A DNA stretch of 64,000 nucleotides from Phytoseiulus persimilis (lineage: Eukaryota > Arthropoda > Arachnida > Mesostigmata > Phytoseiidae), in the NCBI GenBank assembly GCA_037576195.1, contig CM075102.1:6820001-6884000 (forward strand), given 5' to 3'. A model generated the notes under the pieces. That model saw only the letters and a list, made by a program, of their open reading frames with translations, was not told where the DNA came from and did not search any database. Both the position numbers and the translations under genes were made by a program. Position 1 is the stretch's first letter, and every line of letters starts with the position of its first letter. Of the stretch, positions 12,137 to 63,360 are shown piece by piece.

Positions 12137-13461
12137 ATGAGTGATTCTACAAAACTTAATACCGATCTTCAAGAGCAAGCGTCAAGCGAGGTAGTCGGGG
12201 TCAGACAAGCAGCGCCAGACAGACGCGCAGACGCTTCAAGCTCCGCCGCTTCAGCAGCGCCCGTCAAACGCGCAGTAGCTTCAAGCCCCGCCGCTTCAGC
12301 AGCGTCGGACAGCTTCTTCAACTCCACGCTAACTGGGTTTTCGTCTTTCGAGACCTCAGGCGGGCAGATGGAAGGTGCCCCAATCACAACCGAAGAGGGA
12401 GACCAGATGAACGTCAACAGAGATTTTTCACAGGGGGTCACTCCGGCGCAACATCTAACGGACTTCCGCAGCATTCAAGATCAAGAAAATGCGGGGAACG
12501 CTTCGCAGGACGAAGCTCAGGTCAGACGGAGCTCGTCGACAGGTCATGATTCCCAGCAGGAAGTTAAGAAGATCAGACGGAGGCTGAACGCCGTCAAAGC
12601 CCGAGCGAGCATCTTCTCCGGGGACACAGCAACGTTCTACAGCACCAGCATGGATCGCCGCGAGGCGATAGCCAAGGCGGACGCCTGAAGAACACGCTGT
12701 CGTCTCTCCTGGATCAGTGGACCTGTCGGCGCTCGTGGACAACTCAGACGACGACCTGGATCAAGAATTCCACGTCGAGTCGGCAAAAAAGGAGACAACC
12801 TGTTGTATCTCAGGTCTTTGCGAACATTCCTGGTGAACGACCTAACACAAGATTCGAAAGAATCAACGTTCGGGTCAAGATCCATCACGGTACCTGTGTT
12901 ATCGCGAGCCGAGCATCAGGGAACACCACTCCCCCTGCAGACCTCCAGGAATGGAGACTGGAGAGCTTCGACGAAAAACACAAGGCCAATTCCTTCACCG
13001 GGCCCAAAAGACCCCGAGATTCCGCTCGGTGGGGTGGAAGGAATCAATATTACGAAACGTTCAAGCAACGATGGCTCAACGATGGCGGAATCAGGATAGG
13101 GAGCAGCTCCCACCGGTCCCGTCAGTTCACCAGCTTGGCGGACCGAGCTCCTCCCCGGCAGAACGCCCCTCGACACCCAGCGGATGGCGCCCTCCTATGG
13201 TCAACCCGGCAAGCACCGGTTCGTATATTCAACCAGCATCAGCAAGCACACTTCGTGCGGAGGACCCGAGTAACCACCTGCCGAAATTGTCGGACAACTT
13301 TAGAATGCCTCAATTCAGTGGGGACGTCAAAGAGTTCAGAAGATTTATGAACACCTTCAACGCATTCGTCCACAACAGACAGATTCCGGACCTTCAGAAG
13401 GTGATGCTCCTGACTCCTGAGCGGGGCTCTCTCCGGGAAAGCTTTCCAATGTGTACGGCAT
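12137..13461 (+). pseudogene. BEL/Pao 1 gag, N-terminal part
   Basis: The first frame (12137-12688) is Ser/Ala-rich with charged stretches, as expected for the N-terminus of a BEL gag. After indels, another frame (12951-13456) carries the family's capsid signature (LPKLSDNFRMPQFSGDV, EFRRFMNTFNAFVH). This closely parallels the same region of BEL/Pao 2 at about 61090-61160. The frame is cut where the copia LTR begins. Confidence 0.65.
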
Positions 13462-13806
13462 TTTTGGATTTCCGTTCCCTGAAGGCAGTCGGCAGACACT
13501 GATCTGGAATGTTCTCTGGAAGCTGGAAGATCACGGCACCAAATGAACAGACAGAGTTCCGGTTAGGGAATGCGTAGCTCCTCAGGTGCGAAGCTTCTTT
13601 ATTAGCAGTACATATACCAGTAGGGAAAGCGTGAGCCGACCGGGGCCTGGCTCGAAGCGGGTAGCGTTCGAGCCAAGGCTACACGTCTTAGCTCGGCGCT
13701 GCAATCCCGTGGAGTAATCACGCGCACGGCTTGTCCTTATCCCCGTTACGGGTGTGAGTAGTTGGGACATGTTTCAGATACTGAAGTGTAACGATATTTC
13801 TCAACA
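13462..13806 (-). repeat. Copia 1 3' LTR
   Basis: This 345-bp copy aligns end to end with 27744-28090 and with the solo LTR at 44016-44355. On the plus strand it ends CTCAACA. The other end has lost the canonical dinucleotide (TG changed to TT). Differences from its partner are scattered single bases, so the insertion is not recent. Confidence 0.9.
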
Positions 13807-13929
13807 CCCTCCCTCAGATGAAACAGTCTCATACTAGGGGTAACAATACACTGCTTGTTAGTAATACTTCATATCGATGTCCTGCTCTCATGCACTAATA
13901 GGCAGGAAATATGTATGTGGGGTGTTACT

Positions 13930-14655
13930 TTATTCCCAAGTGAAACACTGACCCCGGATTTCATGGGGAATGGCTCTGTAGCCGTCAAACCCAACCCTGA
14001 TACCATACATGTGTCTTATATTTTGGAGTAACACCATGTCCGTCTCACATTTCAACGATTCAGAGTGATGTTCAGATATATAGTTAGTTATTCGCGACAT
14101 AAGATCTGATAACAATACTCCTCTGACCATTGACATGGAATCCTTTTTGTGTCTCGGGGTTGTACTCTCCCACATTTTGTCTAGCACTTTTGAGTGGATG
14201 ATTCCTTTGTGGCACCAGTTCTTTACCTCGTGAATTTGTTGACGAAAGGCTTGCATTACTAATTCGTCGAACTGGGGCCCGGAATCTGCATAGATGGGCT
14301 ACTTGATGAGCTTGTAATAAGCCTTCTTTACTGCACTGGTAGTTTTTAGGCGGCTGATGCACTCAGTGCGGACCTTTACATATCCAATACAGGGTATGAC
14401 CCAGGTTGGTCCGCCGAAGCTAGGATGTCGTCTGAGCCTACTCGGGTGCATTTTGGTCACCCTGCCACAGTCCCAGCAGTTGTCGTCTAAGCAAGGGAGA
14501 GCCCAGTGGTCAACACTTACTATGGAGGAATGGTGTGGTGTTTTCAGAAAATGTTCCAGGCTAGCTGTATGATATAGGTCCGTGTATGGAAACACCAGCG
14601 TAGCTCTGGCATGAAGCACTAGCTGTTCCGGGCTCATTTTCTCCAACTCTAGCAT
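13930..14655 (-). pseudogene. Sense ORF X of copia 1, between the antisense genes and the 3' LTR
   Basis: A frame starts MLELEKMSPEQLVLHARA at 14655 and runs to 14299. A one-base shift then leads into the frame ending at 13930. Together they give about 240 residues, with a compact Cys/His cluster (CLDDNCWDCG...H...H), a GPQFDELV segment and a helical C-terminal half. It reads in the sense direction of copia 1. No counterpart is seen in copia 2 or 3. I do not recognise the family; it could be captured cellular or viral sequence. Confidence 0.45.
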
Positions 14656-15158
14656 GATGCACGAGAGTTATTGTTGTCGGGACACACGAGCAATCTGATG
14701 TTCCAGTTGTCTCCCCTGTGTTCGAGCCACAAGTGTTTCAAAAAACAGAAAACAGTGGTGAGGGATGTGAACCACTTCCATGTGGCCCCCTATTCACCAG
14801 AAACCGTCATCCACCACTCTTCTTTGAGAAGATTCATCCCATTGTTCCTCAGCAGGGTTGATCGAAATTCGACCCCTGCATCTTTCTACACTTTACAGCT
14901 TTGCTGTCTACATGTGGCTTTGATCAAGGTGTATACAACTTGTTAGATTCCAACCGTATCATGCTGCGTTCTTGTGAACCCAGCTGGAACTTCCTCACGA
15001 GTCAGTCTTTCGATTCAAGTGTTTCACACACATCTTTGATCGTAATTTTCCAAGTTCATTCTGGATTTTGTTCAGTCTGTCTCTTTGGACTTTGTCACCT
15101 GTTGTCTTGGAAGATGTCCTCGGCTTTTCCTGATCGAGGTTCTCTCTCAAATCGTGGA

Positions 15159-15165
15159 TATTTAA
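15159..15165 (+). promoter_or_regulatory. TATA-like box of antisense gene A
   Basis: TATTTAA at 15159-15165 lies 111 bp before the ATG at 15276, in the right place for a core promoter whose start site would be near 15190. Confidence 0.4.
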
Positions 15166-15275
15166 GGTCGTACTCGCCTTTTCGAGTTCATTCTTGCTTC
15201 TCCGTCCTGCCGAGACTGTTCACCTCCAGGTCCCAGCCGCCACCTCAGGTATTCAAATTTTCCCAGCCTGTTGTC

Positions 15276-16876
15276 ATGGAAGACAAGAAGTTTGAACTCG
15301 TTCCTAGGCCTCCATCTGAGGTGGTTGCGCCGGTGGTCCCCCGACCGCCGGATGGGAACCTGGTCATGGTAAACGTCCAGGAATCTGCTCTGGCCGCCAA
15401 CTACGGCAAACTGGTGATGGACAGGATAATGAACGTGGAGAACAGCATAGAGCTGTGTCGTGAAGAGTCCATGCAACGCTCTTCACAACTCCAGCGAGTG
15501 TACGATTTGTTCGGTAAAGTCCATCAACTGAGTTCTCAGCAAGAGGTTTTCACTGAAAACTACACCAATCTGTTGGCGCAGCTCAACCTCTTTGCAAAGT
15601 CGGTAGTTCAAACTCCAGTGGTCACTGGTGTCATCGAGTCTCTGGAATCGATGAAAGCCACTCTGAATGAACAGAAAAACACACTCCACCTGACTCAACA
15701 AGATCAGGCCGGACTGGGCCTTCGTCAGGATTTCATCGCTGGGAGCATGGTGTCTCATGATCAGGCCCGTCACCTGCAGAGTCTTATATCAGAGTTACGT
15801 CAGGAGGTGACCGAGTTCCAGCTAAAGGTCAGTCACCGTGCGACTGAGGTTTCCAGCTCAGTTCCTTCGACCGAGTACGCGCTCTCAGGCGATATGGACA
15901 ACATAAAGGATCTTGTTCATAAGATCGATGCAAAATTCCGTCGGCTAGAAGAAACGGTAAAGAAGAACTTCTCGACCACCGCCGAACGCGCAGTTGATTT
16001 GGAGTCGACGTTCAGGTCCTTCGAGTCAAAAATCAAGGTCTTAACCGACCAACTGGATCTCAAGTTCCAGTTAGAAGACACTTTCGATCAGGAGTTGAAA
16101 GCGAAGCTCTCGAGAAACGCGGCTTACATCAATCATCTTTCACACGAGATTGATATCGTAAAGTCCGATCAAATCAAAATATCTTCCGTGGTCTCAAAAG
16201 TGAGTTCATCCACCGACCCACCGACAGAGGGTCCACTCAACTCTCAGGTGGGAGAGTCCACTCCTGGGGACTCGATCCCTTCAGATTCACACGGTGTCCG
16301 GGCTGCAATTCAGGCCTTCCTTACTCAACTGGTGGCCTCTAGATACCGACGGATGTGGGTGCTGTTGGTTCTCACAGCCTCCCTCCTTTTTGGTGAGTTT
16401 TACCGCAACCGTTTTCCATCCATCGTGATACTATCGGAATGATCAGTTGGGATTAATTTTTCGGATTGTTTCCAGCAGGATTCATCTGGGTACTCGCCTC
16501 GAATGGATCTACAAGATCCCCTACCGCTCCCCGTCTCAATCCTGGATCTGCAACTGATACCAATGTCAGTGGTGGGCAGGGCTTTCCCCCCGCTCCCTCC
16601 ACTGCAGCTCCGTCTTCGGAGGATGAAGACTCCACCACTCCATCTCCAACAGTCTCATCGACTTCTTCAACCACTCCTCCTCGCTTCATCGTTTCCGCCA
16701 GAGCATATTGGTGTGCTGGTTTTGATGATGGGTGGAAATGTCGCCATCGTATTGGCTCGGAGTGCCTGCTTGTTGACGGAAATCATCCGGTTCCATCACA
16801 AGTATCTTGTTCTGCCCGAGAGGCATCCGGCGAGTGTGGTGATGGAGGGTCAGTTCGTTATTGTAAACGAACTTGA
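15276..16876 (+). CDS. Antisense gene A of copia 1: coiled-coil type II membrane protein, two exons
   Basis: Exon 1 (15276-16392) encodes a Pro-rich start, then about 300 residues of predicted coiled coil (KLVMDRIMNVENSIELC; LLAQLNLFAKSVVQ), then the first half of a membrane segment (MWVLLVLTASLLF). A GTGAGT donor at 16393 and an AG at 16477-16478 define an 86-bp phase-1 intron. Exon 2 completes the membrane segment (FIWVLAS), then a Ser/Thr/Pro stalk, then a cysteine domain (YWCAGFDDGWKCRHR, CLLVDGNHPV) ending CKRT: about 504 residues. The N-terminus should be cytosolic and the cysteine domain outside or luminal. AATAAA is at 16981. The family copy at 50488-52205 keeps the coil motifs, the intron position and the C-terminal cysteines. 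Function unknown. Confidence 0.75.
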
Positions 16877-17057
16877 TCGATCCGCCGCAGTTTCTGCGCT
16901 TCTAGGCATTACAGCCTCTGGAGTCAAATTGTTTTGGCTTTCTGGGCAATTATTTTGCTTTTCTCTTTTTACAGAAGACAAATAAACAATTCGGTTCGTT
17001 TGATCATGGTGTTTCTCAATTCTGGGATCAGAGTGTCAATACCCATTTACACCCTCC

Positions 17058-17064
17058 TATTTAA
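17058..17064 (+). promoter_or_regulatory. TATA-like box of antisense gene B
   Basis: TATTTAA at 17058-17064, between the AATAAA of gene A (16981) and the gene B frame. It is the same heptamer found upstream of gene A. Confidence 0.35.
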
Positions 17065-17088
17065 AGCCGAGATTATGTCCGGAGTGAT

Positions 17089-18676
17089 TTGATCATTTCA
17101 TTTCACATTCGCAACCGTACGGACATTATCGCTCCCTTTAGTTACGGTTTCTTTAGTGCTTTGGTGGTTGTCGGCATTTTGACCATTTTAGCCCACGTCT
17201 TTCAGGGTTTCTCATTTACTTGGCCCTCATCCCACCGGTTTGAGCACCCTCCATGTTTAAGCCATTCAGCAGAGAGCAGCCACGGTGCTCAGTCATTGCT
17301 GGCTTCATGGACCGACATTCCCCAGCTTGAGACAAGCTATGTCTCACCATGGTTTTCACACCGTCAGGAGTCATATTCTGTTTCTGACATGACTCCAGTA
17401 CTTCTTTCTAGTGAGACTTTCCTTGAGCTATCATTTGATTCTTCTTCTGTCGTTCAGAGAGTGGTTTCCTCTGGGTTGCCACTCACTCCACTATACGATG
17501 CGTCTTCCGAGAGAGACGGTGTTCCGACCCCTGTTTTCATTAGTCCAACTCGAACGTTGCGATCTGTATCCACCTCGCTTTCGAGTTCAGTTTCTCGTCA
17601 TGAGTCGGATTCTCTTCAAGCCTCCCGTGATGCAGCCCACGAAGCATACATCCGGGATACTGAATTCTTTCTTGGATGGAGTCGGGTCGTGCAGGGGCAT
17701 ATTGATTTCACATCAAGGCTCCATGCCGACTTAGCTAAATTCCGCTCTGGCACGAATACGGCTATCGTCCGAGCATCCTCTACTCGGACTCCGACCCACT
17801 CACGAACAACGGACTATCGGCTCGAGAGCATCACAGAGATGCCTCAGTCAACAATCAAACCAGTTGTTCTTCCGACCATCTCCCTCCCTGACTTGATTTC
17901 CTCGTCTCTTCCAATTTTGAAGGCGTCAAGAATTTCTTCAATGGGAGAGTCGGTGAGTTCTCTTACTAATTTTGAATAGTGAAATTTTATGTCCTTCACT
18001 TTGCTATGTGACTTTTCACGTTTTGCTTTCCAGAATTCTCCTGCCATCATCCTGGTTTCATAAACCGTCGTCCCTGGATCCACCCTGAGTTCTCAGGTGC
18101 TGTTACCTACTCTCAATACAGACGTCAACCCAACAGAGGTATCCGTTGATGATACACCTCACTACGAATGGATTGAGCAGGCCGTTGCCGAGGAAGCCGA
18201 TCTGGATCTGAGTGTCGAGGAATCGAAACCGAAGCGATTCAACTCGAGCACCCCCTTCAAGCACTCTCTCGACCTCCACCGTCACAGCTGATACCACTAC
18301 TCCAACTCCGACTGACGCCACTGAGGCTCCGACAACAGAGTCAGACAGCAGCAGCTCGTCGTCTGACGACGACAGCACCACCGGGTTCAGTGCTCCGGAC
18401 GCAGCTACCGACCCACCGATTGATGACGTCACCACCACGGAAGTTTGGTCCATGAGACTTCCCATCCCCACCAGGAGGTACCGATGTGCCATATTAGAGT
18501 ACAATCGACTCTGCAAGTCAGTGCTGGACAGAAAATGTATTCTAGTCCAGGGATCCACTCCTTTGCGGCTCGAACTTCTCGTAAACCAATATGTTGGAAA
18601 CGAGGAGTTCGCTGCTGCCTCGGAGCATATGAAATTTCAAGGATCGTGCACTGGTTTTACCTGGTTCTATGCTTAG
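17089..18676 (+). pseudogene. Antisense gene B of copia 1: Ser/Thr-rich membrane protein, broken
   Basis: The first long frame (17089-17979) has a hydrophobic segment near its start (FFSALVVVGILTILAHVF), then about 240 Ser-rich residues. No good ATG opens it: an ATG at 17075 is one frame off. A GTGAGT donor at 17953 and a strong acceptor at 18031-18033 suggest an intron. Downstream, two frames cover an acidic stretch (EWIEQAVAEEADLDLSVEE) and a mucin-like stalk of Thr/Ser/Asp, then a cysteine domain (YRCAILEYNRLC, RKCILVQG) resembling the C-terminus of gene A and the protein at 54253. At least one indel separates the blocks. AATAAA follows the stop by 2 bp. Confidence 0.5.
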
Positions 18677-18677
18677 T

Positions 18678-18728
18678 AATAAAATCGAATGCCAATACCT
18701 TAGGGGGGCTGGATTGGAAGTCTTTATT
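18678..18728. promoter_or_regulatory. Facing polyadenylation signals (tail-to-tail genes)
   Basis: AATAAA on the plus strand at 18678-18683 ends the antisense gene, and AATAAA on the minus strand at 18723-18728 ends the env-like gene and the element's sense transcripts. The two start 45 bp apart, so the mature 3' ends should touch or overlap. The same spacing recurs at 54223-54273. Confidence 0.6.
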
Positions 18729-18756
18729 TGGCATTGAAGAGCCAGTTCTTAGAGAT

Positions 18757-19251
18757 TCAAATGTTTTCAACCGTGGGCTGATATGGTGACTCGATGCCGC
18801 TTGGGCGATCGTCCGCGGTGGGTTGTGTTCTACTCAACTGCTGGTACTGTCTCCGCCGCCATGTTTGGATCAGGCATGATATGCTGTTGGAGCAGGCATA
18901 CATCACAACAAGTGTAGTGAGTGATGCCGCGTAGATCAGGAGGAAGTTTGTTCTTTTCGATGGAACGGGTGTAGGTGCTGGTGGTTTTTGATGTGTATAG
19001 TTATAGAAGTCAATCCAGATACTGGTTCCGCCAAACGTTGTTCCATTCGGTAACAGGCAGGCTACACCAGGGGACGCTTTCTCAATGCAGGTCTGGTTGC
19101 TTATCAAGCAATCACACGGGAAGAATTCGGGACTCATTTCGGATATGGTACAGAGTTGTCTCTCTCGGATGCACTGTGGTAGACAGTTATCCTCGTACTG
19201 GAAGTATGCGGCCGCTCTTGCCGCTACCATGAGGAGGGCGAACTGTATCAT
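18757..19251 (-). CDS. Small env-like membrane glycoprotein of copia 1
   Basis: 164 codons from the ATG at 19251. Residues 1-15 are a signal peptide (MIQFALLMVAARAAA). The ectodomain starts YFQYEDNC and has eight cysteines, FPCDC, two N-glycosylation sites (NGT, NYT) and a Pro-rich stretch. A membrane segment follows (FLLIYAASLTTLVVMYA), then a basic cytosolic tail ending SPYQPTVENI. The protein at 53700-54184 shares the cysteine pattern, IWI...N.TH and the PY.PT.E.I tail. It overlaps the end of pol in another frame; a possible splice acceptor (acttgcag) lies just upstream of the ATG. Much smaller than retroviral envelopes and without a visible fusion peptide, so calling it an envelope is by position only. 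Confidence 0.75.
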   Translation of the reverse strand: MIQFALLMVAARAAAYFQYEDNCLPQCIRERQLCTISEMSPEFFPCDCLISNQTCIEKASPGVACLLPNGTTFGGTSIWIDFYNYTHQKPPAPTPVPSKRTNFLLIYAASLTTLVVMYACSNSISCLIQTWRRRQYQQLSRTQPTADDRPSGIESPYQPTVENI

Positions 19252-20529
19252 CTGTGATACCTGCAAGTGTTCGCAGTCGGATAAACTGAGGTTCCGCTAA
19301 ACCTTTCGTTTCAAGATCTGCCAAGTTTAGTTGCGATGGGCAATGGGTGATTTTGAACTCACCCTCTTCTATTCGTTCCTTCAACCAAAAGTAACGTATG
19401 GCAATATGTTTGGAACGCTTCGATACCTGGGCTTCAGTTAGCAGTTGGATACAACCAGTGTTGTCCACATGAGGTGTCGGAGTAATTTGGTCCCCGACAT
19501 CCTGAAACAGTCTGCCAAGCCACAAACAGGTTTTTCCCGTTTCGCTGCAAGCCACTATTTCACTTTCAAGAGTGGAAAGAGTGATGCAGTTCTGCCGTCT
19601 AGAAGACCAGCAAACTGGTGCTCCGCCAGACATTAGCACAGCGCCACTGGTACTACACCGAGTACTCCTGCAACCGCCCCAGTCGGCGTCGCAACGGGCG
19701 TCAATTTTGGCTTGAGCTCCACCTATATAAGTCGGACCATGGTTCCGGGTCTCTGACAGATACCTCAGTATTTTTAATCCACTGTTCCATAGATGGCGTG
19801 TTGGCTTATCCAAGTATCTGGACATCAGCCCAACCGCATAGGAAATATCTCCTCTCGTTCCCACAGAAACGAACATCAAAGCCCCCACAAGCTCTCTATA
19901 CTTAAGAGTAAGATCGATTTCTCCCTCAAATGCAGATTTCGACGTTGAGTCGATTGGTACTGGAGACACTTTGCAATCTGCCATCTGGAATCGATCTAGT
20001 AGCTCGGTGATATATTGGGCTTGATCCAAGTGGATCCTACCTCCGTCGGGAGAGATCGCAATTCTCAATCCCAAGAAAAACTCAAGTGGCCCTGAGGTAA
20101 GTTTGGAGGTTTTCTCTAGTTCCTTTGTTATCCTTTGATTCATTTGTTCTGAGTTTGAGCCTATCAGGCAATCATCAACATAGATTAGAACAAATACTCG
20201 AGTCGGAGGGTTGGAAAAGTACAAGCACGGATCCAACTTGCTTCTGGTCAATCTGACTGTATTAAGGCTCAACAAAGTGTTGCTCAATTTCTGATTGAAC
20301 ATCTTTGGAGCGTGGACTGTTCCATAGCTAGCCTTAAGTAGCTCACAAACCCGGTTTTTGTCATCCTCAAAGCCAGCGGGCTGTTTCATAAAAAGTCTCT
20401 TGTCCAATGGGGCTGACAAGAAGGCCGTGCCTATGTCCGTGTGGTTCAAACGGAGATGCTCCTGGGCGGCAATTGACAGTACTGTCCGAATGGTATCGAA
20501 CTTCGCCACAGGGCTGAACAGACTATCAA

Positions 20530-20711
20530 TGTTAACTTTTTGTAACTTAAGTGGGTTCTTTCGAGATATTCAAAAATCCGACAGGGACAACACGAGGCCT
20601 GAGTTGGCTGCTACAACGAGACTGGTGTCACGTGGAAAGGGTGTGACACTTCTTTTTATTCACGTTGTGTGGCGGTAGCGTTCGAACGTGTAGGAGATAC
20701 TAACTCTAACA
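20530..20711 (-). repeat. Gypsy 1 3' LTR
   Basis: 182 bp, starts TGTTAACTTTTTG and ends CTAACTCTAACA on the plus strand; the same as the copy at 24831. Confidence 0.93.
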
Positions 20712-20769
20712 ACTCTCCCCTTCTTGAATTATGTACAGTTTAAGATTATTATTATTGGGAATATCACAA

Positions 20770-23700
20770 TCAGTGCGGTCGATATCGGTCCGGTGGAACA
20801 CCGGCCGTAACTCGACTGGATCTTCGTATCCGTTCCTGAGGGAGATCCTCTTGAGCTTCCTCAAAGGTCTCTGAGGCGTCCTCAAACAATGCTGAGTCGG
20901 CTTGATTTCCATCACCAGTATTTTGGGATGGCACTAGTACCGCCTGATCAGAAGGATTCTTATCTGGCTCGGGGTCTGCAAAAAGCAGGGCGGGATTCAG
21001 CTCATCGTCGGGCGATTCGGCCACGATTCCGCCGTTGAATCGCCTGAGCTGATTGTGGTGTCGCTTGGAAACTCCTTGCGGCAGTGCAACCATGGCAACC
21101 TTTCTTCCACAGAGTTTGACGATCTTGCCCAGACTCCATTTCTGGGTTCTGTTATACACTCGAGCCATGACCCCGTCGCCGATGCTGAACCTGGACGTAT
21201 TCTGCGATTTGTTGTTCCCGGATTCAGTTTCATGTTCGGAATAGTGCGTGGACTGCGGTTGTTCGCTGAGCAGGTCCAGGCGACAGCGGATTTGACGACC
21301 GATCATAGCCTCGGCTGGTGTCCTGTTTGTTGTCGAGTTCGCTACCATTCGATATTGAAACAGGAACCTTTGCAGCGCGGTATGAAGGTCTCTCTCTCCT
21401 CCACTCTTGATTTTCTTCAATCCCTGTTTGACAGTTTGCACGTACTTCTCAACTTGACCATTTGAGGCCGGGCTGTACGGAGGGCAAGTTTTATGGATTA
21501 TGCCGTTTCCACGACAGAATTTGTTGAAATCTTGTGAAGCGAATGTCGGGTCGTTATCGGAGACGATGACCTTGGGCAACCCGAACCTCGCGATGACCTC
21601 TCTGAGGTGTTTAAGAGTCGTATAAGTTGTTTTCGTGGTTGATGCGAAGACTTCTAACCATTTAGAATTTGCATCGACGAGCAGGAAAAGGTACTTCCCG
21701 TCAACGGGGCCAGCATAGTCGATATGCACCCGATCCATGGGGTGCTCAGCGGGCATCCACGGATGATACGATCTCGGAGGTAGTCTTGCGTGTTCAGCGC
21801 AGACCATGCATTCCTTCACCAGCTTTTCGATTTCAGAATTTAAGCTCTCCCACCACACGTAACGTCTTGCGAGCTCCTTCATCTTGTCGACGCCGAAGTG
21901 TCCCTCGTGCAGGGCCACCAGGATTTCGGGACGACAGGACGACGGGATCACGACCCGATGTCCACGGAAGATCGCACCGTTGATTGTTGAGAACTCGGAG
22001 ATGTCGAGTTTCCAAAACGTTTTCGCCGATGCCGTTGAACCTTCAAGGCATTTAAGCAGCGGTTTCAGAATTCCACAATTCCGAGTTTCTCTTGCGATTC
22101 TAAGTAGGTCGATCGGGACGTTGTCGGTGACTTCCATCAGAAAGACATCTTCAGCCTCTTGCCTGATGAGAAACTGCTCACTCTTCACCGGCAGTCGCGA
22201 GAGCATGTCAGCGTTCCCGTGATCATTCGTGTTACGGTAGACTATGTCGTAACTGAACGATTGTAGAAACATGCTGTAATTCATCATCCGCATTGCAGCG
22301 AGCGGCGGGAGCGCTTTCGATGGTGAGAATATAGAAACCAAGGGTTTGCTATCTGTAATCAAGGTGAATCTTCTCCCAAACAAGTAGTAGAAGAATCGAC
22401 TCATCCCTTCCTTTATGCCAAGAGCTTCTCTTTCGAGTGGAGTGTACCTTTTCTCCACCTCCGTCAGGGTTCTGGAATAGTAAGCGATAGGACGCTCCGT
22501 TTCGTCGTCGTAGCGGTGGGAAAGGACGGCTGAAATTCCATACGATGAAGCATCCGTAGCCAACAAGAGGGTCTTTTCTGGATCAAATGGCACGAGAACT
22601 CTTGTGGAGCACATTTCGGATTTCACAGCTTCGAACGATTTGTTCATTTCTTGGGACCAAACAAACGGTTTCTGGCCACCTCCTTGGAAAGCTTTGTAGA
22701 GCGGATGCGCCAGATCGGCAAGTTGCGGTGCGAATGAAGAGTAGAACTGGATCATCCCGATGAAACTTCGCAATTCGGAGACAGACTGGGGAACTGGAGC
22801 TTGCTTGAAACATGATATCTTGTCATCACACTTGTGAATCTCTTGATGCTTTAAACGGAACCCGCAGAACTGTATCTCCTCCGCGAAAAACTTGCATTTC
22901 TGTAGATTTAGTCGAATATTATGAGTGTTCAGGCGCTGTAGAACAGTCTCCAGGCGCTTCAAGTGGTCTTCATCAGTCGACGCAGTCACGACGATGTCGT
23001 CGATAACGACCTCAACACCATTGATGCCTGCTAGTATGCCTTCCATAAACCGTTGCCAAATAGCCGGCGCGGACGCAAGGCCGTTACACATGCGTTTGAA
23101 ACGGTACAAACCGCGATGTGTGTTGACGGTGACGAATTTCTGGTCCTCCTCTCGGATAGGCATGTGTAAGAACGCGTTGGAAATGTCGAGTTTCGTGAAT
23201 CGCTTGCCGATTCCAATGTTGTCAAGAGCATAACGAATGTTTTTCAGCGGGTGGTCATCCACCAAGAGATGTTGGTTTAGACCGATCTTGAAGTCTCCGC
23301 ACACTCTTGCCCTTCGCTTCACGTTGTCTCCTTTACCTCGGAGCGCGATGACCACCGGATGAGCCCACTCGCTTGCGTTGATTTTCTCGATGACGTCGAA
23401 TTTCTCCAGTTGATCGAGCTCTTCATCGACGAGCGGCATCAAAGCGTGTGGCACGGGTCGAGGGCGGAAGTGTGCTGGTTTTGGATTTCCCCTAAGATGC
23501 AATGCAGCCTCGACAGTTGGAATCTTCCCGATGCCTTCCTTGGAGAGGTTAGGATACTTGAGAAGAAGTGATTTTGCTTCTTGCTCGTAATCGATTCCGT
23601 TGTGGTAGCACCGATCGAACCCAAAGGAAGTCGGTTTGATACTCCGCAGCCATGATCTTCCAAACAGAGTGGGAAAGTTGGGTCGATCAATAAGGTAGAG

Positions 23701-24813
23701 TTTCAAGTTTTCTGACCGGTTTTCGAGGGTCACTGGAACCAGGGCGTAAGAATGTGGTTCAAAATTTTCACCGGTGGCAGTTCGAAGTCTGACGTCATTT
23801 GTATGCAGAACCTCGTTGGGAAACATTTTCCGGAACTTGTCCAGCGCCATGGCAGATATTCCGCTTCCTGTGTCCAATTCCATCGACACCTCACGATCAT
23901 AGATGCGCACATTCAAGTTCATCGGAGCTTTATCAAGTCCTTCGACAAAATTGAAGGGAACCTCCTCCAGCAAATGATGAGTCTGACCTGAACGGCACAC
24001 CAATGGGAGATGTCCTTTCTTCTTGCATAGACGACACTCAGCAGATTTGTGTGGGCAATCTGGAGCGAGGTGATTTGGGTTTCCACAGCGGTAGCATTTT
24101 CGGGACGAGTTTGGTCTTCGGGAATTTCCGCGATCATTGGAATTCTTGGGCATGGGTCGGCATGCCTTGTTGCCAACGTGAACCCTGTTGACGTTCTCCA
24201 TTTTCGCGGGATCATTGTGAGAATTCCGAAGCTTGGATGTAGCTTTTTTCGCTCGCAACAGTTCGTTCGTAATGTTGAACACATCGGCCAAGTCTTTCGA
24301 AGCCGCGCACTTGACCAGAATCGCTTGTTGAGTAGTATGGTCGTCGAGTCCACCTATGAACTGCTCGATGAGGTTCATCTGGAGTTCTTCGCCCGTCCAT
24401 TTGCAGTTCCGGCCAGCAGTGCGGATGCGAGCTTCGTAATCGTCGAGAGTTTCGCCCGAGCTTTGTCGGACTCTTCGGAATTCCAGACGCACGTTCCATA
24501 TATTCTCGCCCGGCTCGTAGATTTTCTTGAGCAGTGCGGTGATTTCTTCGTATTTGAGTGTATTCGGCGTTTTATCCGAAGGAACTTTGTCGTAGAGCCT
24601 CTTGAAAGCTGTAGCACCCATGAACGCGAGAATGGCGCAGTGTTTCTCCTCGGTCGAAGTTTTCTTCTCGTAGAGCAAGTAGTTCTCGAGACGACATAGC
24701 CAAGATGAGAACCGCTCATTTCGCGGTTCAAACGGCGCGAATGTTGCACTGGATGCAGGCATAACAGAATCTCGACCTTGGTTCGCCGAATCGGAAGTAC
24801 ACTTTCGATTCAA
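20770..24813 (-). CDS. Gypsy 1 Gag-Pol polyprotein (1347 aa)
   Basis: One uninterrupted frame. The gag domain occupies roughly the first 220 residues, then two zinc knuckles (CYRCGNPNHLAPDC and CRLCKKKGHLPLVC) at about residues 245-280. The aspartic protease follows (LDTGSGISAM). The reverse transcriptase has RVCGDFKIGLNQ, LDISNAFLHM and a VIDDIVV active site in place of the usual YVDD. RNase H has LATDASSYGI, LEREALGI and ITDSKPL. Integrase has an HHCC zinc segment (HEGHFGVDK...CMVC) and a complete D,D,E set (IDYAGPV, VSDNDPTF, GQVEKYVQ). Gag and pol are fused without a frameshift, as in some Ty3/gypsy lineages. There is no env gene. All catalytic residues are present, so the copy may be competent. 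Confidence 0.92.
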   Translation of the reverse strand: MNRKCTSDSANQGRDSVMPASSATFAPFEPRNERFSSWLCRLENYLLYEKKTSTEEKHCAILAFMGATAFKRLYDKVPSDKTPNTLKYEEITALLKKIYEPGENIWNVRLEFRRVRQSSGETLDDYEARIRTAGRNCKWTGEELQMNLIEQFIGGLDDHTTQQAILVKCAASKDLADVFNITNELLRAKKATSKLRNSHNDPAKMENVNRVHVGNKACRPMPKNSNDRGNSRRPNSSRKCYRCGNPNHLAPDCPHKSAECRLCKKKGHLPLVCRSGQTHHLLEEVPFNFVEGLDKAPMNLNVRIYDREVSMELDTGSGISAMALDKFRKMFPNEVLHTNDVRLRTATGENFEPHSYALVPVTLENRSENLKLYLIDRPNFPTLFGRSWLRSIKPTSFGFDRCYHNGIDYEQEAKSLLLKYPNLSKEGIGKIPTVEAALHLRGNPKPAHFRPRPVPHALMPLVDEELDQLEKFDVIEKINASEWAHPVVIALRGKGDNVKRRARVCGDFKIGLNQHLLVDDHPLKNIRYALDNIGIGKRFTKLDISNAFLHMPIREEDQKFVTVNTHRGLYRFKRMCNGLASAPAIWQRFMEGILAGINGVEVVIDDIVVTASTDEDHLKRLETVLQRLNTHNIRLNLQKCKFFAEEIQFCGFRLKHQEIHKCDDKISCFKQAPVPQSVSELRSFIGMIQFYSSFAPQLADLAHPLYKAFQGGGQKPFVWSQEMNKSFEAVKSEMCSTRVLVPFDPEKTLLLATDASSYGISAVLSHRYDDETERPIAYYSRTLTEVEKRYTPLEREALGIKEGMSRFFYYLFGRRFTLITDSKPLVSIFSPSKALPPLAAMRMMNYSMFLQSFSYDIVYRNTNDHGNADMLSRLPVKSEQFLIRQEAEDVFLMEVTDNVPIDLLRIARETRNCGILKPLLKCLEGSTASAKTFWKLDISEFSTINGAIFRGHRVVIPSSCRPEILVALHEGHFGVDKMKELARRYVWWESLNSEIEKLVKECMVCAEHARLPPRSYHPWMPAEHPMDRVHIDYAGPVDGKYLFLLVDANSKWLEVFASTTKTTYTTLKHLREVIARFGLPKVIVSDNDPTFASQDFNKFCRGNGIIHKTCPPYSPASNGQVEKYVQTVKQGLKKIKSGGERDLHTALQRFLFQYRMVANSTTNRTPAEAMIGRQIRCRLDLLSEQPQSTHYSEHETESGNNKSQNTSRFSIGDGVMARVYNRTQKWSLGKIVKLCGRKVAMVALPQGVSKRHHNQLRRFNGGIVAESPDDELNPALLFADPEPDKNPSDQAVLVPSQNTGDGNQADSALFEDASETFEEAQEDLPQERIRRSSRVTAGVPPDRYRPH

Positions 24814-24830
24814 CCGTCTTCGTCGCCAGT

Positions 24831-25012
24831 TGTTAACTTTTTGTAACTTAAGTGGGTTCTTTCGAGATATTCAAAAATCCGACAGGGACAACACGAGGCC
24901 TGAGTTGGCTGCTACAACGAGACTGGTGTCACGTGGAAAGGGTGTGACACTTCTTTTTATTCACGTTGTGTGGCGGTAGCGTTCGAACGTGTAGGAGATA
25001 CTAACTCTAACA
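24831..25012 (-). repeat. Gypsy 1 5' LTR
   Basis: 182 bp, with no difference seen from the other LTR. It is followed outward by the ATCAA target duplication. Confidence 0.93.
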
Positions 25013-25382
25013 ATCAAAGTCAGTGCCAGGTCTTTGTTTATATCCTCTTACCACGAGCCTAGCCTTCCTTTTGATTATGTTATTGTCCTTGTCCGTTTTC
25101 AACGAGAAAACCTATCTGTTCGTCAGAACGTTCTGTCCGCGTTCTGGGTCTACCAATTTGTAGACCTGATTGGTTCTAAAGGAGTCCAATTCTAATGCCA
25201 TTGGCGCAAGCCATTCATTCTTATACTTTGAGCGATACACGTCTGCTAGGTTAAGAGGCACGTCTGCCTGTGAGTTGAACCTGCCTAGGGGGTCGCTAGT
25301 TTCATGATTTGTAGTACTACTTGTTACATTGTAGGCTATCCCTGCCTCAAGTTGGCTCGGCTTCTTTGAGGTTCTCCTATCC

Positions 25383-26433
25383 CTAAAGTTGTTTCTGCGT
25401 CCCTCGGTTTGTGCATCCATCCGGTTTGTGGCCAGTGATCAACTCGAATGGGGACTTCCCAGTGGGCTCGTGCTCCTTGGTGGCGTTGAGACAAAAAGTC
25501 CCAAAATTTATCGCCTCAGCCCAGACTCCTTTTCCGAGGTTGCTGTCAAGGATAATTGTCCTTGCAAGGTTAAGCAACGTGCGATTCAGACGCTCGCTTA
25601 CAGCGTTATGCATCGGAGTGTACGGAGCACTGTAGGAGTAATCACATCCTGTTGATTCAAAGAGGGCTTGTAGCCTCTTGTTTTGAAACTCTGAGCCGCC
25701 ATCCGAGTGAAAATGGTATACCTGCTGTCCTGATCTCAGCCTGAACCACTTGAGGAAGTCCCGGATCCGATCAAAGACCTCAGCTTTGTTGTGTAGGGAG
25801 TAGACCTTTCGGAATCGGCTATAATCGTCAGTCCAGTCAGGAAGGCGTACTGACGAAGCAGACATCGCTGTTGATCCATCCAATACGAGGGGCGCGTGAG
25901 CTGCTGGGTTTCGGCCGAAAGCTAGCTCTTGGCATTTTCCCTTTTACACAGCTATCACAGCCAAGGAAATCTTGGAGCACGTCATATCCTTGACGCTGCA
26001 GCATTGACTTGAGCCATTCGATGTTGATATGAGCGAAATTCCGGTGCATGATAGTGAGGCTGATCTTTTTCTTCAGCTCGTTGTTCTCGGCGTTGTTCCC
26101 CTCAGCAAAATCTACGGCATACAAGAGGTAAAGGCCCTTCTTTCTTGTTGCACAAATGGTCACCTCTCCTTGAGTCATACGGACTGTCCTTCTGGAGATC
26201 CTGATTTCGAAGTCCTCATCAGTGAGTTTCGAGACTGATATGAGATTTCGGCGGAGTTGGACTGTTATCGGCTTTCCTTCCTGAATGAATGTCACGTGGA
26301 CGGTTCCGGACCCAGGAGCGCTCAGGGTTCGGGAACCTCCTAGTCTTACTTGACGTAGTTGTTCAAATGGTATGTAGTCGGACATGTGCTCGCGAGAATT
26401 ACACATGTGGTAATTTGTTCCGGAGTCCACCAC
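25383..26433 (-). pseudogene. Copia 1 protease and integrase
   Basis: Opens with the aspartic-protease motif VDSGTNYHM, then the GAG-pre-integrase zinc segment (H...H and CDSCVKGKM), then the integrase core. A small indel near 25850 shifts the frame. The D,D,E residues are visible as INSDV, FHSDGGSEF and AVSERLNR. The frame ends early after FELITGHKP because of a short deletion compared with copia 2. Confidence 0.75.
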
Positions 26434-27632
26434 TTATTCGTTGTCAGGTGTCACAATGTGGGACTCTGCACTCTTCGTTTCACAGTTCAGGATCTCAACT
26501 ACATCAGCTTCTGTGTGATGTGCCCTTGCGTGTTGTGGGCGTTGGCGGTTAAAGGGTCTCCTTCCGCCGCGCCGAGATTGCTGGTTTCGTCTGGTTGGCT
26601 GCGAAGATTGTGAGCGATTCGGGTGTTGCTGTTGGACTCTTCCTTGGTTTTCACTCCCTTGAGGGGTACGGCACTGTGCGCGTACATGACCTGGGCGACC
26701 ACATCCATAGCAGACCTTGGTTGGTGTGCCAGTCGGCATCCTGCCTCCTCTGGGTCTGTTGTTGAACGTCCTTCGGGTGGGTCGTCTACCTGACGGGCCC
26801 CGAAGTCGCGAGAATAGAGCTGTTACTTCACTAGTATCGAATTTTCCTCTTCGAATTGCTTCCATCTCAATGGCTGATGTTAAGTGGACGAGGGATTGAG
26901 CTGTCTCATCTCTGTCAGTAAAGCTCTGCTTGAACGATTCCCAGTTTGGTGACAGACTCGGGAGCAGAATCGTGATTTTCAAGTCAGAGGGCAGGGAATT
27001 CCTGGGGCTTCACAGCGGCTCAATATCTTGTTGAACCTGAGCAGATTTTCGCCAGCGCTTTTGTTGGACAAATACCTGTAGGTGGTGAACTTTGACAGTG
27101 CCACTCTCTTCAGGCCTCCATGTGCACTGTTGAATCGTCCCGTGATGTCCCTCCACATTTCAGGGGCATCAACCGTCTCAGCGTTGGCATGGAAAAGCGA
27201 GGTCGCTAGATCAGATTGGAGTGAAGCAAAGAGAGTATAGCGTGCAGCACGGTTTCCTGCCTCGAATTTTCTTTTCTGGATTTTTGCGGCTGCACTCTTC
27301 GCCGTGGTCGGTGGTGGTATTAGATTTTCCATCGTCATGTCTAGGGCGAATGGATCAGCGTCCAGTGCTGCAGAAATCATTACTCGCCATTCGGTGTAGT
27401 TTGCTCCATCCAGTTTCAGTTTCACCAGATCTCTTGCTCGGTGTCTTGAGCCCATATTGAAGTCGTTCAAGTCCTTGTCAGTGTCGTAAGTGGTCCCAAT
27501 GGTTTTCTGGCTGAAGTCCAACGCCTCATCACCCGTTTTCGCAGAATGTCCTGGCATTTCTTCTCCAACCTCACTAAAGCCGTGGGAGCTGCTGGAATCC
27601 TCTTGTGTTCGTTGACTCTCGACTGGATCCAT
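26434..27632 (-). pseudogene. Copia 1 gag, one frameshift
   Basis: Starts MDPVESQRTQEDSSS at 27632. The N-terminal domain (LKLDGANYTEWRVMISAALDADP) is the copia gag-like fold, shared with the gag at 46610. A one-base shift near 26995 moves to the frame starting at 26982, which carries the rest of the capsid and one CCHC knuckle (CYGCGRPGHVRAQC) in an Arg/Gln-rich tail. A TAA at 26436-26434 separates it from the protease; in copia 2 the same place is an uninterrupted Phe codon. Confidence 0.8.
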
Positions 27633-27743
27633 CTTCTTGTCGCACCTTGTAGTACCTTCACCGGCAGGTCACTTTACACGAGAGTCACAGTGTTCACTTC
27701 CAAACGACAGTGTCCACAGAGTCGTATCGTGCGCAATAACGAT

Positions 27744-28090
27744 TGTTGGATTTTCTTTCCCTGAAGGCAGTCGGCAGACACTGATCTGGAATGTTCTCTG
27801 GAAGCTGGAAGATCACGGCACCAAATAAACAGACAGAGTTCCGGTCAGGGAATGCGTAGCTCCTCAGGAGCGAAGCTTCTTTATTAGCAGTATATATACC
27901 AGTAGGGAAAGCTTGAGCTGACCGGGGCCTGGCTCGAAGCGGGTAGCCTTCGAGCCAAGGCTACGCGTCTTAGCTCGGCGCTGCAATCCCGTGGCGTAAT
28001 CACGCGCATGGCTTGTCCTTGTCCCCGTTACGGGTGTGAGTAGTTGGGACATGTTTCAGATACTGAAGTGTAACGATATTTCTCAACAGG
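27744..28090 (-). repeat. Copia 1 5' LTR
   Basis: A 347-bp copy with intact TGTTG/CAACA ends. It contains a short TATATATA segment and, read on the minus strand, an AATAAA-type signal, matching the promoter and polyadenylation layout of an LTR. Gag starts 112 bp inside. Confidence 0.9.
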
Positions 28091-35059: not shown

Positions 35060-35290
35060 CATTCGAGAATTCCGAAATCGTGGAATAAATCAGCCTGTCG
35101 ATAATTTCATGTTACGGCTCGAAATCGATTTTCTGGAATCTTACGCGTCGTCTTCCTCGAATCGAAGAAATATTCTATCGCCACAACCGTGGTGATGCTG
35201 GGAGTATTCCATGGCAGCATCAACATCATCTCTCTTTGTCATCAGGAATAGTCTAGAAAACTTGACTGTCGATAATTTCGTGTTGTGGGC

Positions 35291-35731: not shown

Positions 35732-35739
35732 ATTACTTT

Positions 35740-35867
35740 TCAACTCTGGGGGGATGGTTCCGAGACCAATCTGACCATTACTTTCCAAGTCTGGAGGGGT
35801 GATTCCGAGAGGAATCTGACTATAACTTCCCAAGTCTGGGAAGTGATTCCGAGACCGATCTGACCAT
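35740..35867. repeat. Minisatellite, three units, inverted family member
   Basis: Three 43-47-bp units of the form gGTGATTCCGAG...ATCTGACc. This is the reverse complement of the unit repeated at 41328-42002. The same block recurs at 38175-38302 in the second duplication unit. Confidence 0.7.
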
Positions 35868-44355: not shown

Positions 44356-44360
44356 AGAAG

Positions 44361-46544: not shown

Positions 46545-46609
46545 GATACTTGTACAGATACAGTGTACAAGTGATCGTTCGGTGCATCGAGTGAAAGAAG
46601 TCCTCGTGA

Positions 46610-49835: not shown

Positions 49836-49839
49836 CACC

Positions 49840-53327: not shown

Positions 53328-54184
53328 CCAAGACTTTCGGTCTCCGGTACACGAGGAGCGGTCAAGAGCTGTTCGAGTGCTTCAGCGATGCAGATTTCGC
53401 TGGCGACGAGCAAACGAGACGGAGCACCACCGGATCACTGATTCGGTTCGGAGGCGGAGTCATTTCCTGGGCAAGCAAACGCCAAGCGGCCGTGACGCTC
53501 TCTTCAATGGAGGCGGGGCTTGTGGCCCTTTCCGAAATACTCAAGACCGCGATTTGGACAGCGCGTCTACTCGCAGAGCTTGGACATCCAGTCGTACCAA
53601 AGTTGCTCGTTGACAACCAGTCGACGATCGCTCTTGCTGAGAATCCATCCTTCCACAAACGCTCAAAGCACATCGAGATGGAAACCGTCAAGATGATGGT
53701 CACGTTCGTCACAGTGTGCGTGATGGCCAGCAGCGCGTCCGGGTACTTCACATACTCCGACTGCGACACTGATTGCCAGAAGATGAACTGGCCATGCACG
53801 ATTTCCCAAACAAACGAGAACAACTTTCCATGCGACTGCGTGGAGCTCGAAGCGAGCTGCCTCAGATTGGCGTCAAGAGAAGTTGTATGCCTGATCAAGA
53901 ACAGGACTGCCGTAGGAGGAGAAGACATTTGGATTCCATACTTCAACCATACGCACCCGTCGACGCCATCGCCCCCGGTTCCCGATCCTGATCGGACGAT
54001 TGGATATTGGTTCAAATTTCTGTCGATATACTTTGTAGTTACAAACGTGTTCTCGGTGCTCGCCAGGAGGATCGTCCTCACGAGATGGGTCAGACGAATT
54101 CGAGCGCGTTCATACGCTCGCTTGCCTGATCCGCCTCTTGAACAGGAGGATGGACCATACCGACCGACAACCGAAGAGATTTGA
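53328..54184 (+). CDS. Copia 3 RNase H fused in frame to the env-like glycoprotein
   Basis: The first half is copia RNase H: FSDADFAGDEQTRRSTTG, SSMEAGLVALSE, LVDNQSTIAL and NPSFHKRSKHIEME. Without a stop it runs into the env-like protein: an internal signal-like segment (MMVTFVTVCVMASSASG), then YFTYSDCDTDC with eight cysteines, FPCDC, sites NRT and NHT, a Pro-rich stretch, a hydrophobic segment (FLSIYFVVTNVFSVLA) and the tail DGPYRPTTEEI. Copia 1 has about 40 more RNase H residues before the signal peptide, so the fusion probably comes from a deletion. Translation from the internal ATG near 53694 would still give a secreted protein. Confidence 0.75.
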
Positions 54185-54222: not shown

Positions 54223-54273
54223 AATAAAACGCACGTCTCGCTATTTACAAATTTAAAGATTTGGACCTTTATT
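54223..54273. promoter_or_regulatory. Facing polyadenylation signals, copia 3
   Basis: AATAAA on the plus strand (54223-54228) after the env-like ORF and on the minus strand (54268-54273) at the end of the antisense gene; starts are 45 bp apart, as in copia 1. Confidence 0.6.
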
Positions 54274-55663
54274 CATCGATTGAGCGGAGAAGATCGAAAA
54301 GTTAGAACAAAGCCTTTGTATCTCGGATACATCTGGTCCAAAAGCAGCGAAACTACTTGGATCATAGTTTCGAGCTGACAAGCGATCTGGAGTCGGAATG
54401 TGCAGCAGAATGACGACACAGCGTCGATCCCTGCGGTAGATGCAGGTCCGCGCATACGACATCTGGTAACAGTGATATCCACGGATATCCAATTCAAATC
54501 GCCTGGGTCGCAAAGTCGATGAAATCGAATCGGTGCTCATTTCCGAAATCGAACTCGAGAGAGTCGATATGGTACCGGTGTCAGTTGTCATCGAATGCAC
54601 GATTGACTTTGGAGAAGTGAGACGCCTGGTTGTGGAAGTAGAGGGAAGACCTCCGAGTTGTTGCAGTAAGCGGCAGGTCCGAGGCAACAACACCCTCGGC
54701 AGTGGTCAAAGAAGACCGAGTGGTGGTTGTAGTTGATACAGTGTGAATTGCCGTCGTGGGAAGCGACGAGGTGACCCGCGGAGATGGAGTTGATGATGAA
54801 ATGGATTGAGTCGGCGTGAGATAGGAACGTCGCCCGACAGTCGCTTTTTCCAGGAGCCCAGTCCTTCTTAACTTCCTAGATTATGATAATTATCACGGGC
54901 ACGGTTCCATCGAAGAACTATTCGGATGATATCGCTCGTGACCTCTTCATCGTCTTGGCTTACTGTGAACGATGAGTATGTTCGACATGCCAACGATGAG
55001 TCGTCGTTACAAAAGAACGGGTATGCCATGGAGTTGTGGAACTCGGTACCCAGCGACGAGTCGTTGTTTGACGACGTTCCCCATGCCTGACAGCGCGAAC
55101 GGTCGTGGTTGGAGAATACTCTCGAGTCACTTGTCCGGTGAGAGTACGATATATTGGTGTTAATGGAGTCGGTGATGCAGATCTCACAGATTCCGAAATA
55201 GTTGAAGTCTTTACAGTCAATGTCGGGTTTGACGTTGCAGCCGTTGTCGGAGGTCCGACCGAAAAGACTCGTAGCGTTTCGCGGGTGCATGGCCTCGCGA
55301 ACCATGCGCTCACTCTTCGTGGAAGTGGAGCTTAAGAGGAAAACTGTAGGAGAGTAACGAAAAATTGGAATGCAGCTCTCACGGAAACGTAATCAAGATA
55401 TGCGACGACGTCTGAAACATACCCGAGTAGACCAGAATTCCGAGAACGACCGACAACACGGAAATCACAAACAACAAGTATTTCGTCACACCACGGGCCA
55501 CGCGCAGGTTCGGAGCAATCGATCGCACATTAATTTCGCTACTTTGACGAGAAATGCAACATTCATGGTCGATCCCTTGGAGCTCCATCGTGGAGGGTAC
55601 GGATCGAGAGAAAGTAGCTCTCGAAGTAGGTTTGGGAGTAGCACTCGATGTATCAGTGCTCAT
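54253..55663 (-). pseudogene. Copia 3 antisense gene 2: membrane protein with mucin-like stalk, broken
   Basis: Exon 1 (55663-55423) encodes a Ser/Thr/Cys-containing N-terminus and a membrane segment (YLLFVISVLSVVLGILVYS). A GTATGT donor at 55422 and CAG ending at 55344 bound a 79-bp phase-1 intron, and exon 2 completes the segment (VFLLSS). Beyond it the Thr/Ser/Pro-rich stalk jumps between frames (55260-54960, about 54850-54650, then 54690-54530), showing indels. The C-terminus has a cysteine domain (YHCYQMSYARTC, RRCVVILL) like that of copia 1 gene B. AATAAA lies within the last codons, so the true end may be earlier. Confidence 0.55.
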
Positions 55664-62313: not shown

Positions 62314-62321
62314 GTTTAGAT

Positions 62322-62700: not shown

Positions 62701-62759
62701 ACTCCTGCGAGGGTCAAGGAACTTATCATCTTAGATGTTCTAGCTCATTCCTGTTGTTG

Positions 62760-63360
62760 TCCTCCGAGGACACAGTCCCCATCCAGACTTCGTCATACCA
62801 CCAAAGGTATTGTATCTTTCATCTTTCGCAACAGCAGAGAAGAGGAAAGAACTGGTTCATCGAACCAGCGCTGAGGTAGCTCCCACCAACAGCGGTCGAG
62901 CTTCTGATGGGAGTCTGGTCGTGGTGAATGTTCAGGAATCCCAGCTTGCCGCAAACTACGGGAAGCTGGTCATGGATCTTAATTTTCGAGTGATGTGCAC
63001 AGTGATGTGTCTGGCTCTGTGTCGAGGAGTCTCACTCAGTCGTACCGCAGGATTCCAACTTGTCTGGGAATTATTCGACACTGTTCAGCGGTTGGGCGTT
63101 CAGCAGGGGTAATTTGCTGACAACGATGCTAAGCCCTTAGCACAGCTCAATCTGTTCGCGAAGTCTGTGGTCCAAAGCTCAGTGGTAATGGGAGTCATTG
63201 TAGCGTTTGATCAGATGAGAAGGACTGTAGATGAGCCGAAAAACTTACTCCGCTTGGCCAAGGAAGAGCAGCAGGGGCTCGATCTACGTCGGGATTACCT
63301 TGCTGGTAATATGGTATCAATTTGGTCGGGCTCGTCATCTTCAGAGCCTCCGTTTCTGTA
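62760..63360 (+). pseudogene. Fragment of a copia-type antisense coiled-coil gene inside BEL 2
   Basis: Frames 62810-63112 and 63113-63345 align with exon 1 of copia 1 gene A: DGSLVVVNVQESQLAANYGKLVMD, a degraded coil, LAQLNLFAKSVVQSSVVMGVI, then LLRLAKEEQQGLDLRRDYLAGNMVS and a trace of ARHLQSL. A stop at 63110 and a shift near 63330 break it. The membrane segment and exon 2 are absent. The borders with BEL 2 sequence are not sharp. Confidence 0.7.

Follow-up and report, generated by a model that had tools for sequence, protein, structure and literature searches.

Predicted membrane protein genes on both strands of Ty1/copia elements from an arthropod genome

Copia elements are generally taken to be intracellular, and the locus described here raises the question of whether such an element can own, and be served by, membrane proteins encoded on both of its strands. 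The locus lies in a stretch of 64,000 nucleotides from Phytoseiulus persimilis (GenBank assembly GCA_037576195.1, contig CM075102.1, positions 6,820,001 to 6,884,000), hereafter the window, with a GC content of about 50%, and consists of a Ty1/copia element on the minus strand at 13460-28088. From pol to the 3' long terminal repeat (LTR), this element carries env1 (sense), B (antisense), A (antisense) and C (sense). By our codon-level estimates and genome searches, A and B, located between env1 and the 3' LTR, are under purifying selection and occur in many families together with env1 and a copia reverse transcriptase (RT). We consider it likely that these elements form an ambisense-coding Ty1/copia clade of arthropods, whose membrane proteins would serve the element itself. 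The 181-Mb source genome that we searched has 112 matches to Chitin_bind_4, a cuticle domain that we take to be an arthropod mark and that has no match in 14 control genomes of unstated kind.

A copia element and its antisense genes

Membership in Ty1/copia is given by the RT, the LTR termini and the target duplications. The RT/RNase H part of pol (19190..20569, minus strand) matches RVT_2, the copia-type RT of the Pseudoviridae, with E=5.8e-36, and the family has LTRs with TG...CA ends and 5-bp target duplications. In the window copy, the 3' LTR (13460..13807, minus strand) and the 5' LTR (27742..28088, minus strand), both delimited by the repeat pair and by comparison of copies, are ~96% identical (95-96%; Kimura two-parameter distance, K2P, 0.042). 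The terminal TG of this 3' LTR is eroded, and four of the five target-site bases match when the flanks are read by eye. Ahead of the RT lie gag (26437..27668, minus strand), which is in two frames here and has a CCHC knuckle just under the cut-off (E=0.0013), and the protease/integrase part of pol, assigned in pieces by reading (25112..26433, minus strand). An integrase-like open reading frame (ORF) at 25943-25383 precedes the RT at 20569-19190, also by reading, and Pol_BBD was found in a second copia element of the window, copia 2. A sequence-only reading of this DNA had proposed a Ty1/copia element of about 10 kb from its LTR pair, near-duplicate target site and gag-pol order, and the element itself is confirmed; since a Gypsy element sits in pol, the 14.6-kb span is an element of ~10.1 kb plus a recent guest.

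Gene A spans 15276-16876 on the plus strand, antisense to pol, in two exons. A TATA-like box (15158..15165, plus strand), identical in the six aligned copies that hold the stretch, lies ahead of exon 1 (15276..16392, plus strand), which encodes a helical, coiled-coil-like part and, at its end, the beginning of a hydrophobic segment. After a putative intron (16393..16475, plus strand; GTGAGT...CAG), exon 2 (16476..16876, plus strand) supplies the rest of that segment, a stalk rich in serine, threonine and proline, and a Cys-rich head. It is followed by AATAAA (16981..16986, plus strand), placed within a few bases in the six aligned copies holding this stretch. The hydrophobic segment thus lies at the exon boundary, with basic residues before it, and neither window exon alone reaches the threshold for a transmembrane (TM) segment.

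Gene B (17065-18676, plus strand) also has two exons, and in the window copy it lacks a start codon and has a broken exon 2. Its TATA-like box (17057..17066, plus strand) varies among copies. Exon 1 (17065..17952, plus strand) has no in-frame start ahead of its TM part here, whereas other copies have a start codon just ahead of the N-terminal TM segment. A putative intron (17953..18033, plus strand; GTGAGT...CAG) leads to exon 2 (18034..18676, plus strand), encoding a stalk rich in serine and threonine (S/T) and a Cys-containing head in a frame that is damaged here and open in other copies, L019 among them (copies and loci carry L numbers throughout). AATAAA (18678..18683, plus strand) follows in the seven aligned copies that hold the stretch. 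Copies in which all frames after pol are open do exist. In divergent families B can be a single long frame, and frames of at least 470 aa are found in 14 of the 69 B loci. Both A and B are predicted to be type II membrane proteins with S/T-rich stalks and Cys-containing heads, and env1 a type I protein, orientations that we assigned from basic residues and the placement of cysteines, as is the rule for membrane proteins. Two plus-strand membrane protein genes with TATA-like boxes and poly(A) signals, as first proposed from the bare sequence, are supported by these features.

Are these frames coding? Codon positions were aligned over eight copies, two of them partial (L023 and L024), from which dN/dS was computed by the pairwise Nei-Gojobori method; L019 and L021 are near-identical except in ORF C, the values for B cover parts of its exons, and the L023 rows for B, being alignment noise, were excluded. 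Variable sites concentrate on third codon positions, those of the plus frame in both first exons and those of the minus frame in C. dN/dS is 0.09-0.15 for A exon 1 (0.22 when paired with L024, a damaged copy), 0.29-0.37 for B exon 1 (over 17386-17952), 0.21-0.36 for B exon 2 (over 18260-18673) and 0.09-0.16 for C, the further sense ORF that had been noticed earlier. Coding is clear for A exon 1 and C and good for B, while A exon 2 is undecided by dN/dS alone.

This last exon bears on the explanation that the antisense frames merely mirror sense coding, or that the strand acts as an antisense RNA. Among close copies, the mirror frames are about equally constrained over both second exons: A exon 2 (0.36-0.62) has no advantage over its mirror (0.32-0.50), and constraint is also seen in the mirror frame of B exon 2 (0.36-0.46), which counts in favor of mirroring and against genuine antisense genes. 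However, the frame opposite A exon 1 (15483-15788) is unconstrained, with dN/dS of 1.0-1.5, B exon 2 scores higher in its plus frame than in the mirror "env2" frame at all eight distant loci compared, and the splice sites found are those of the plus strand. Mirroring is, in our estimation, scarcely credible. The predicted introns diverge faster than both exons, in four of four pairs for A and likewise for B. GT and AG are kept, with few exceptions, in the aligned copies that hold the A and B splice sites, although L024 is without the A donor. At the corresponding place of A, a frame-compatible GT-AG is present in four families, with candidates of 78-101 bp in copia 2 together with L056, in L053, and in L055/L059; these come from a script that gave candidates for seven of eight inputs (none for L060), several for each, of which the strongest was taken.

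The ends of A and B, that is, stalk and head, are probably related and paralogous. Compared within one copy, they show 26-32% identity (E from 2e-4 to 1e-9), a match that includes the S/T-rich stalk and was made with the low-complexity filter off, and the heads alone share 19-23% identity, with three Cys and one Pro invariant; both facts temper the case for paralogy. In a small search of L073, a locus of a divergent family, the A-head profile found its B gene with E=2e-4 and the B-head profile, which contained a member of the L073 family, found its A gene with 6e-4.

Distribution across the genome

Judged by these searches, the layout of env1 and antisense genes is widespread in this genome. 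Gene A gives 107 matches that make up 66 loci. At 49 of these, an env1 on the opposite strand follows within 12 kb downstream (at 1.6-3.2 kb in 42, counted by hand); it is on the same strand at three, opposite but upstream at two, and has no scored match within 12 kb at 12. Placement used 67 of the 107 A rows, the other 40 adjoining them by eye. An opposite-strand copia RT is located no more than 6.5 kb downstream at 34 of the 66 loci, and none of the 66 has an RT on the same strand within that distance. Seen from B, at least 57 of the 69 loci are tail-to-tail with an opposite-strand env1, 61-367 bp apart, in a comparison that used 86 of the 150 env1 rows. Seen from pol, env1 is directly 3' of the RT on the same strand at 78 of 90 scored RT loci; 150 of 217 env1 candidates and 92 of 637 RT candidates were scored.

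LTR-paired copies tell the same story. The LTR search scored 40 of 137 candidates, and all 14 copies that could be paired from that list hold gene A sequence, several of them degraded and some with identical LTRs, so that full-length members lacking the antisense region, which would have spoken against its being part of the element, were looked for and did not turn up in this set. An exact 5-bp target duplication, read by eye in the flanks, is present in nine of the 14, with mismatches in L025 and L027 and unreadable sites in L018 and L020. LTR dating covered 13 pairs, leaving out that of L051 and excluding L032/L048, which are two 3' LTRs. K2P is 0-0.015 in 11 of the 13; the older ones are the window copy (0.042) and L020 (0.078). 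The window copy is, on this measure, older than most LTR-paired copies.

Loci with this layout range in identity from ~45% to 100% for the RT and from 19% to 100% for A. Reading of ten divergent A regions found a B-like TM frame after A in eight (L053-L059 and L061), L060 and L062 being broken pieces, and in L073, whose RT is ~45% identical, a head of the A type (E=4.8e-10) and a gene B both lie antisense; the antisense genes should therefore be no younger than this 45% split. It could still be imagined that host membrane proteins were captured independently and hitchhike, unneeded by the element, and two facts agree with this: like host genes, A and B contain introns, and subfamily 2 has moved with damaged copies. 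The latter group (L025-L031 and L035), whose LTRs are 79-83% identical to the window's, has LTR pairs only 0-1.3% apart and thus recent moves despite shared lesions in A, env1 and pol, which also tells against genes that serve the element. Subfamily 2 is probably non-autonomous and mobilized in trans, with loss of the cargo tolerated there; cargo in cis is therefore not needed by every mobile copy. Capture is nevertheless highly improbable in our view, given the same layout over such divergent RT and A sequences, the purifying selection on A and B, and the B-like frames that follow A in eight of ten divergent regions. Nor does A look like a host family living mostly outside LTR elements, considering its opposite-strand company of env1 and RT.

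The original argument for real cargo had come from copia 2, said to carry a homologous antisense gene, and this holds. Its antisense A, in two frames (50491-50892 and 50838-52247, minus strand), is 24% identical to the window's A (E=1.8e-21, low-complexity filter off) with the A head present too, and an antisense B (49649-50266, minus strand) is there as well, both being antisense to copia 2 gag. The cargo has since proved older and wider than two elements, and its genes are, by the predicted introns, spliced in this family. A match of copia 2 A to Spectrin (E=2e-4, under its cut-off) was rejected as coiled-coil similarity. No RT or env1 match was found between the copia 2 LTRs, and the element (46281-52877) looks internally deleted, with gag and part of pol followed by B and A.

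A third copia (43542-54705) has copia 2 between its pol pieces and its RT end and env1. The env1 of this third element (53675..54184, plus strand) and an antisense B-type head (54253..54705, minus strand), tail-to-tail with it, were assigned by sequence match. A 138-bp inverted match (45549-45686 and 53192-53329) suggests a rearrangement, and a lone LTR of the studied family within the pol pieces of the third copia (44015-44356) is probably a solo LTR. A fourth copy, of subfamily 2, is represented by a gene A fragment (62744..63316, plus strand; sequence match), which is adjoined by DUF1759 and protease-like pieces (60904-62701), DUF1759 being presumably a BEL/Pao-type gag. The Gypsy nested in pol of the studied element (20530..25012, minus strand), 5' of the RT part and outside the copia element proper, has identical LTRs and is, from its sequence, a very recent insertion; ATCAA stands on either side (20525-25017), and its open frame is 1366 aa long. 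At 35259-39175, two 300-nt stretches are repeated with 100% identity ~2.44 kb further on, which suggests that this DNA was duplicated in direct orientation not long ago. Arrays resembling minisatellites, with several frames open, occur near copia copies (L019 1-318, L073 2807-4261 and L075 2755-3870).

The sense genes and a proposed role for the membrane proteins

The frame of env1 (18757..19251, minus strand) overlaps the end of pol and is judged to be coding from conservation over eight aligned sequences. Its 164 aa comprise a hydrophobic start, a Cys-rich ectodomain of ~85 residues, one TM segment and a tail, features consistent with a small type I membrane protein. Six Cys are invariant over the eight sequences, most of which have one TM segment, that of the third copia (env_copia3) staying below the threshold. 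The tail has an invariant Tyr in what we take to be a YxxPhi-like setting, plus a motif that we name PYxxT. The env-like gene of the sequence-only reading thus stands as regards env1, while a minus-strand ORF at 18636-18103, which had been counted as part of env, appears to mirror B exon 2. A profile of env1 matched three of 3061 candidates in a protein database (E<=1.2e-31), all from other sources, and a search with the single sequence matched none of 54. The three relatives (P0001-P0003) are on three short contigs and have the same Cys and tail pattern.

ORF C (13930..14655, minus strand), sense to the element, has no TM segment by hydropathy. It is interrupted by one in-frame stop here and open (243 aa) in L017 and L019. 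The L021 version of this ORF (787-1512) shares ~60% identity with that of the window, against 75-85% for A and B, and recombination or a module swap next to the 3' LTR is possible.

How could genes on two strands be expressed from one element? The LTR would drive a sense RNA serving as genome and gag-pol message, and env1, while internal antisense promoters would give separate spliced mRNAs for A and B. Antisense genes need promoters of their own, which the TATA-like boxes may supply, and the internal position of these boxes suggests that A and B do not depend on a promoter in the 3' LTR. The antisense introns would survive retrotransposition because the RNA that is copied is the sense strand, on which they are not spliced. 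B and env1, being tail-to-tail, would yield overlapping transcripts.

A type I protein and two stalked type II proteins together suggest a role at a surface or in transfer between cells. With less confidence, we propose that env1, A and B may together make up an apparatus by which the element shows itself at a surface or passes from cell to cell, with A and B as stalked attachment proteins. Since env1 has no family, PDB-sequence or fold match at the cut-offs used, a part in fusion or attachment is something that we infer from its features. A fuller version, in which the whole clade is ambisense and enveloped or contact-transmitted, with three membrane glycoproteins from two strands forming one surface complex and the antisense arrangement serving timing and the keeping of introns, is tentative, and we would sooner expect parts of it to fail than all to hold.

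Several results pull the other way from an ambisense clade served by its membrane proteins. In the window copy, gag, pol, B and C all carry damage, and of six near-complete copies of the main subfamily, three (window, L019 and L021) have an A exon 1 without stops or shifts. The predicted structure of A, with a helical N-terminal part, is poor (pLDDT 46). None of env1, A, B and C has a Pfam match over the cut-off; env1 matches no PDB sequence at E<0.1 and no fold, in PDB or among viral models, at E<=0.001, and ORF C has no convincing PDB sequence match. A protein database search with A matched none of 8000 scored candidates. Farther out, L074 (RT 40%) has one antisense TM gene whose head match is weak (E~0.001-0.003 in a small search), and the antisense gene of L075 (RT 35%) has no significant head match.

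The antisense genes might also be selected yet act inside the cell, for instance as regulators bound to a membrane, or by blocking receptors or excluding superinfection. With its 164 aa, env1 is much shorter than classical fusion glycoproteins, and the long helical N-terminal part of A is modeled without a known fold. Regulatory functions have moreover been proposed for the Retand antisense proteins (PMC11963269) and described for HBZ of HTLV-1 (PMC10186651), in the parts of these sources that we used. Against such a role, the TM segments, S/T-rich stalks and Cys-containing heads of A and B fit the cell surface better, and B stands tail-to-tail with env1 at the great majority of its loci. An exclusively intracellular role thus seems to us unlikely, and we keep to the reading in which the proteins would serve the element, perhaps at a surface or in transfer between cells.

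Ambisense coding is known from some RNA viruses; if A, B and env1 do reach the surface, it would exist in LTR retroelements too, and passage of a retroelement between cells or hosts would become testable in one animal. In addition, the element would be a natural case for the persistence of an antisense intron in a retroelement.

Comparison with known systems

The sequence-only reading knew of no animal copia with this layout, and open-access literature text yielded none, which is not proof. The element resembles, but is not, a Retand, Sirevirus, HBZ/ASP or sORF2 system, in comparisons that draw on part of each source. As for envelopes, those of Errantivirus and retroviruses are recognizable fusion glycoproteins, and the Pfam, PDB-sequence and fold searches did not show env1 to be one.

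The sORF2/FAST-like proteins of Drosophila MDG1-group LTR elements are small TM proteins that enable transfer into the oocyte (PMC11952523, preprint). These have 63-107 aa and an ectodomain of ~30 residues, and all candidates in the portion of the preprint used are forward (PMC11952523). The likeness is that of a small TM protein in an LTR element, whereas env1 has 164 aa, a hydrophobic start and a Cys-rich ectodomain of ~85 residues. LTR elements of bdelloid rotifers, of retrovirus-like families, have ORF3 genes (PMC5408684); compared by description, these resemble our genes in being extra ORFs with TM, Cys and coiled-coil features that several lineages share.

Antisense protein genes are shared with HTLV-1 and HIV-1, whose HBZ and ASP are expressed from the 3' LTR, HBZ having a spliced form (PMC10186651). 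ASP, a membrane protein, lies inside env, and its presence on the viral envelope has been reported (PMC10186651). Their likeness to A and B is likewise one of description. Sireviruses are plant-specific copia elements with a putative env gene, said to be the only genus that often has env-like genes, and the part of the source used mentions no antisense gene (PMC3414828). Our element has in common with them a copia pol followed by a sense env-like gene, and differs in having a host that is not a plant.

Also among the nearest precedents, along with Sireviruses and HBZ/ASP, is Retand, a plant Gypsy in which, as in Grande and RIRE2, antisense ORFs follow pol and precede the 3' LTR (PMC11963269). 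Its antisense proteins mostly contain a TRP28 domain and are predicted to bind DNA, and in the part of that paper used no TM regions are reported for the sense ORFs of the region (PMC11963269). Gypsy RT, plant hosts and TRP28 separate Retand from our element, with its copia RT and its A and B outside any Pfam family at the cut-off. What the two have in common is the position of an antisense coding region and its retention within a lineage.

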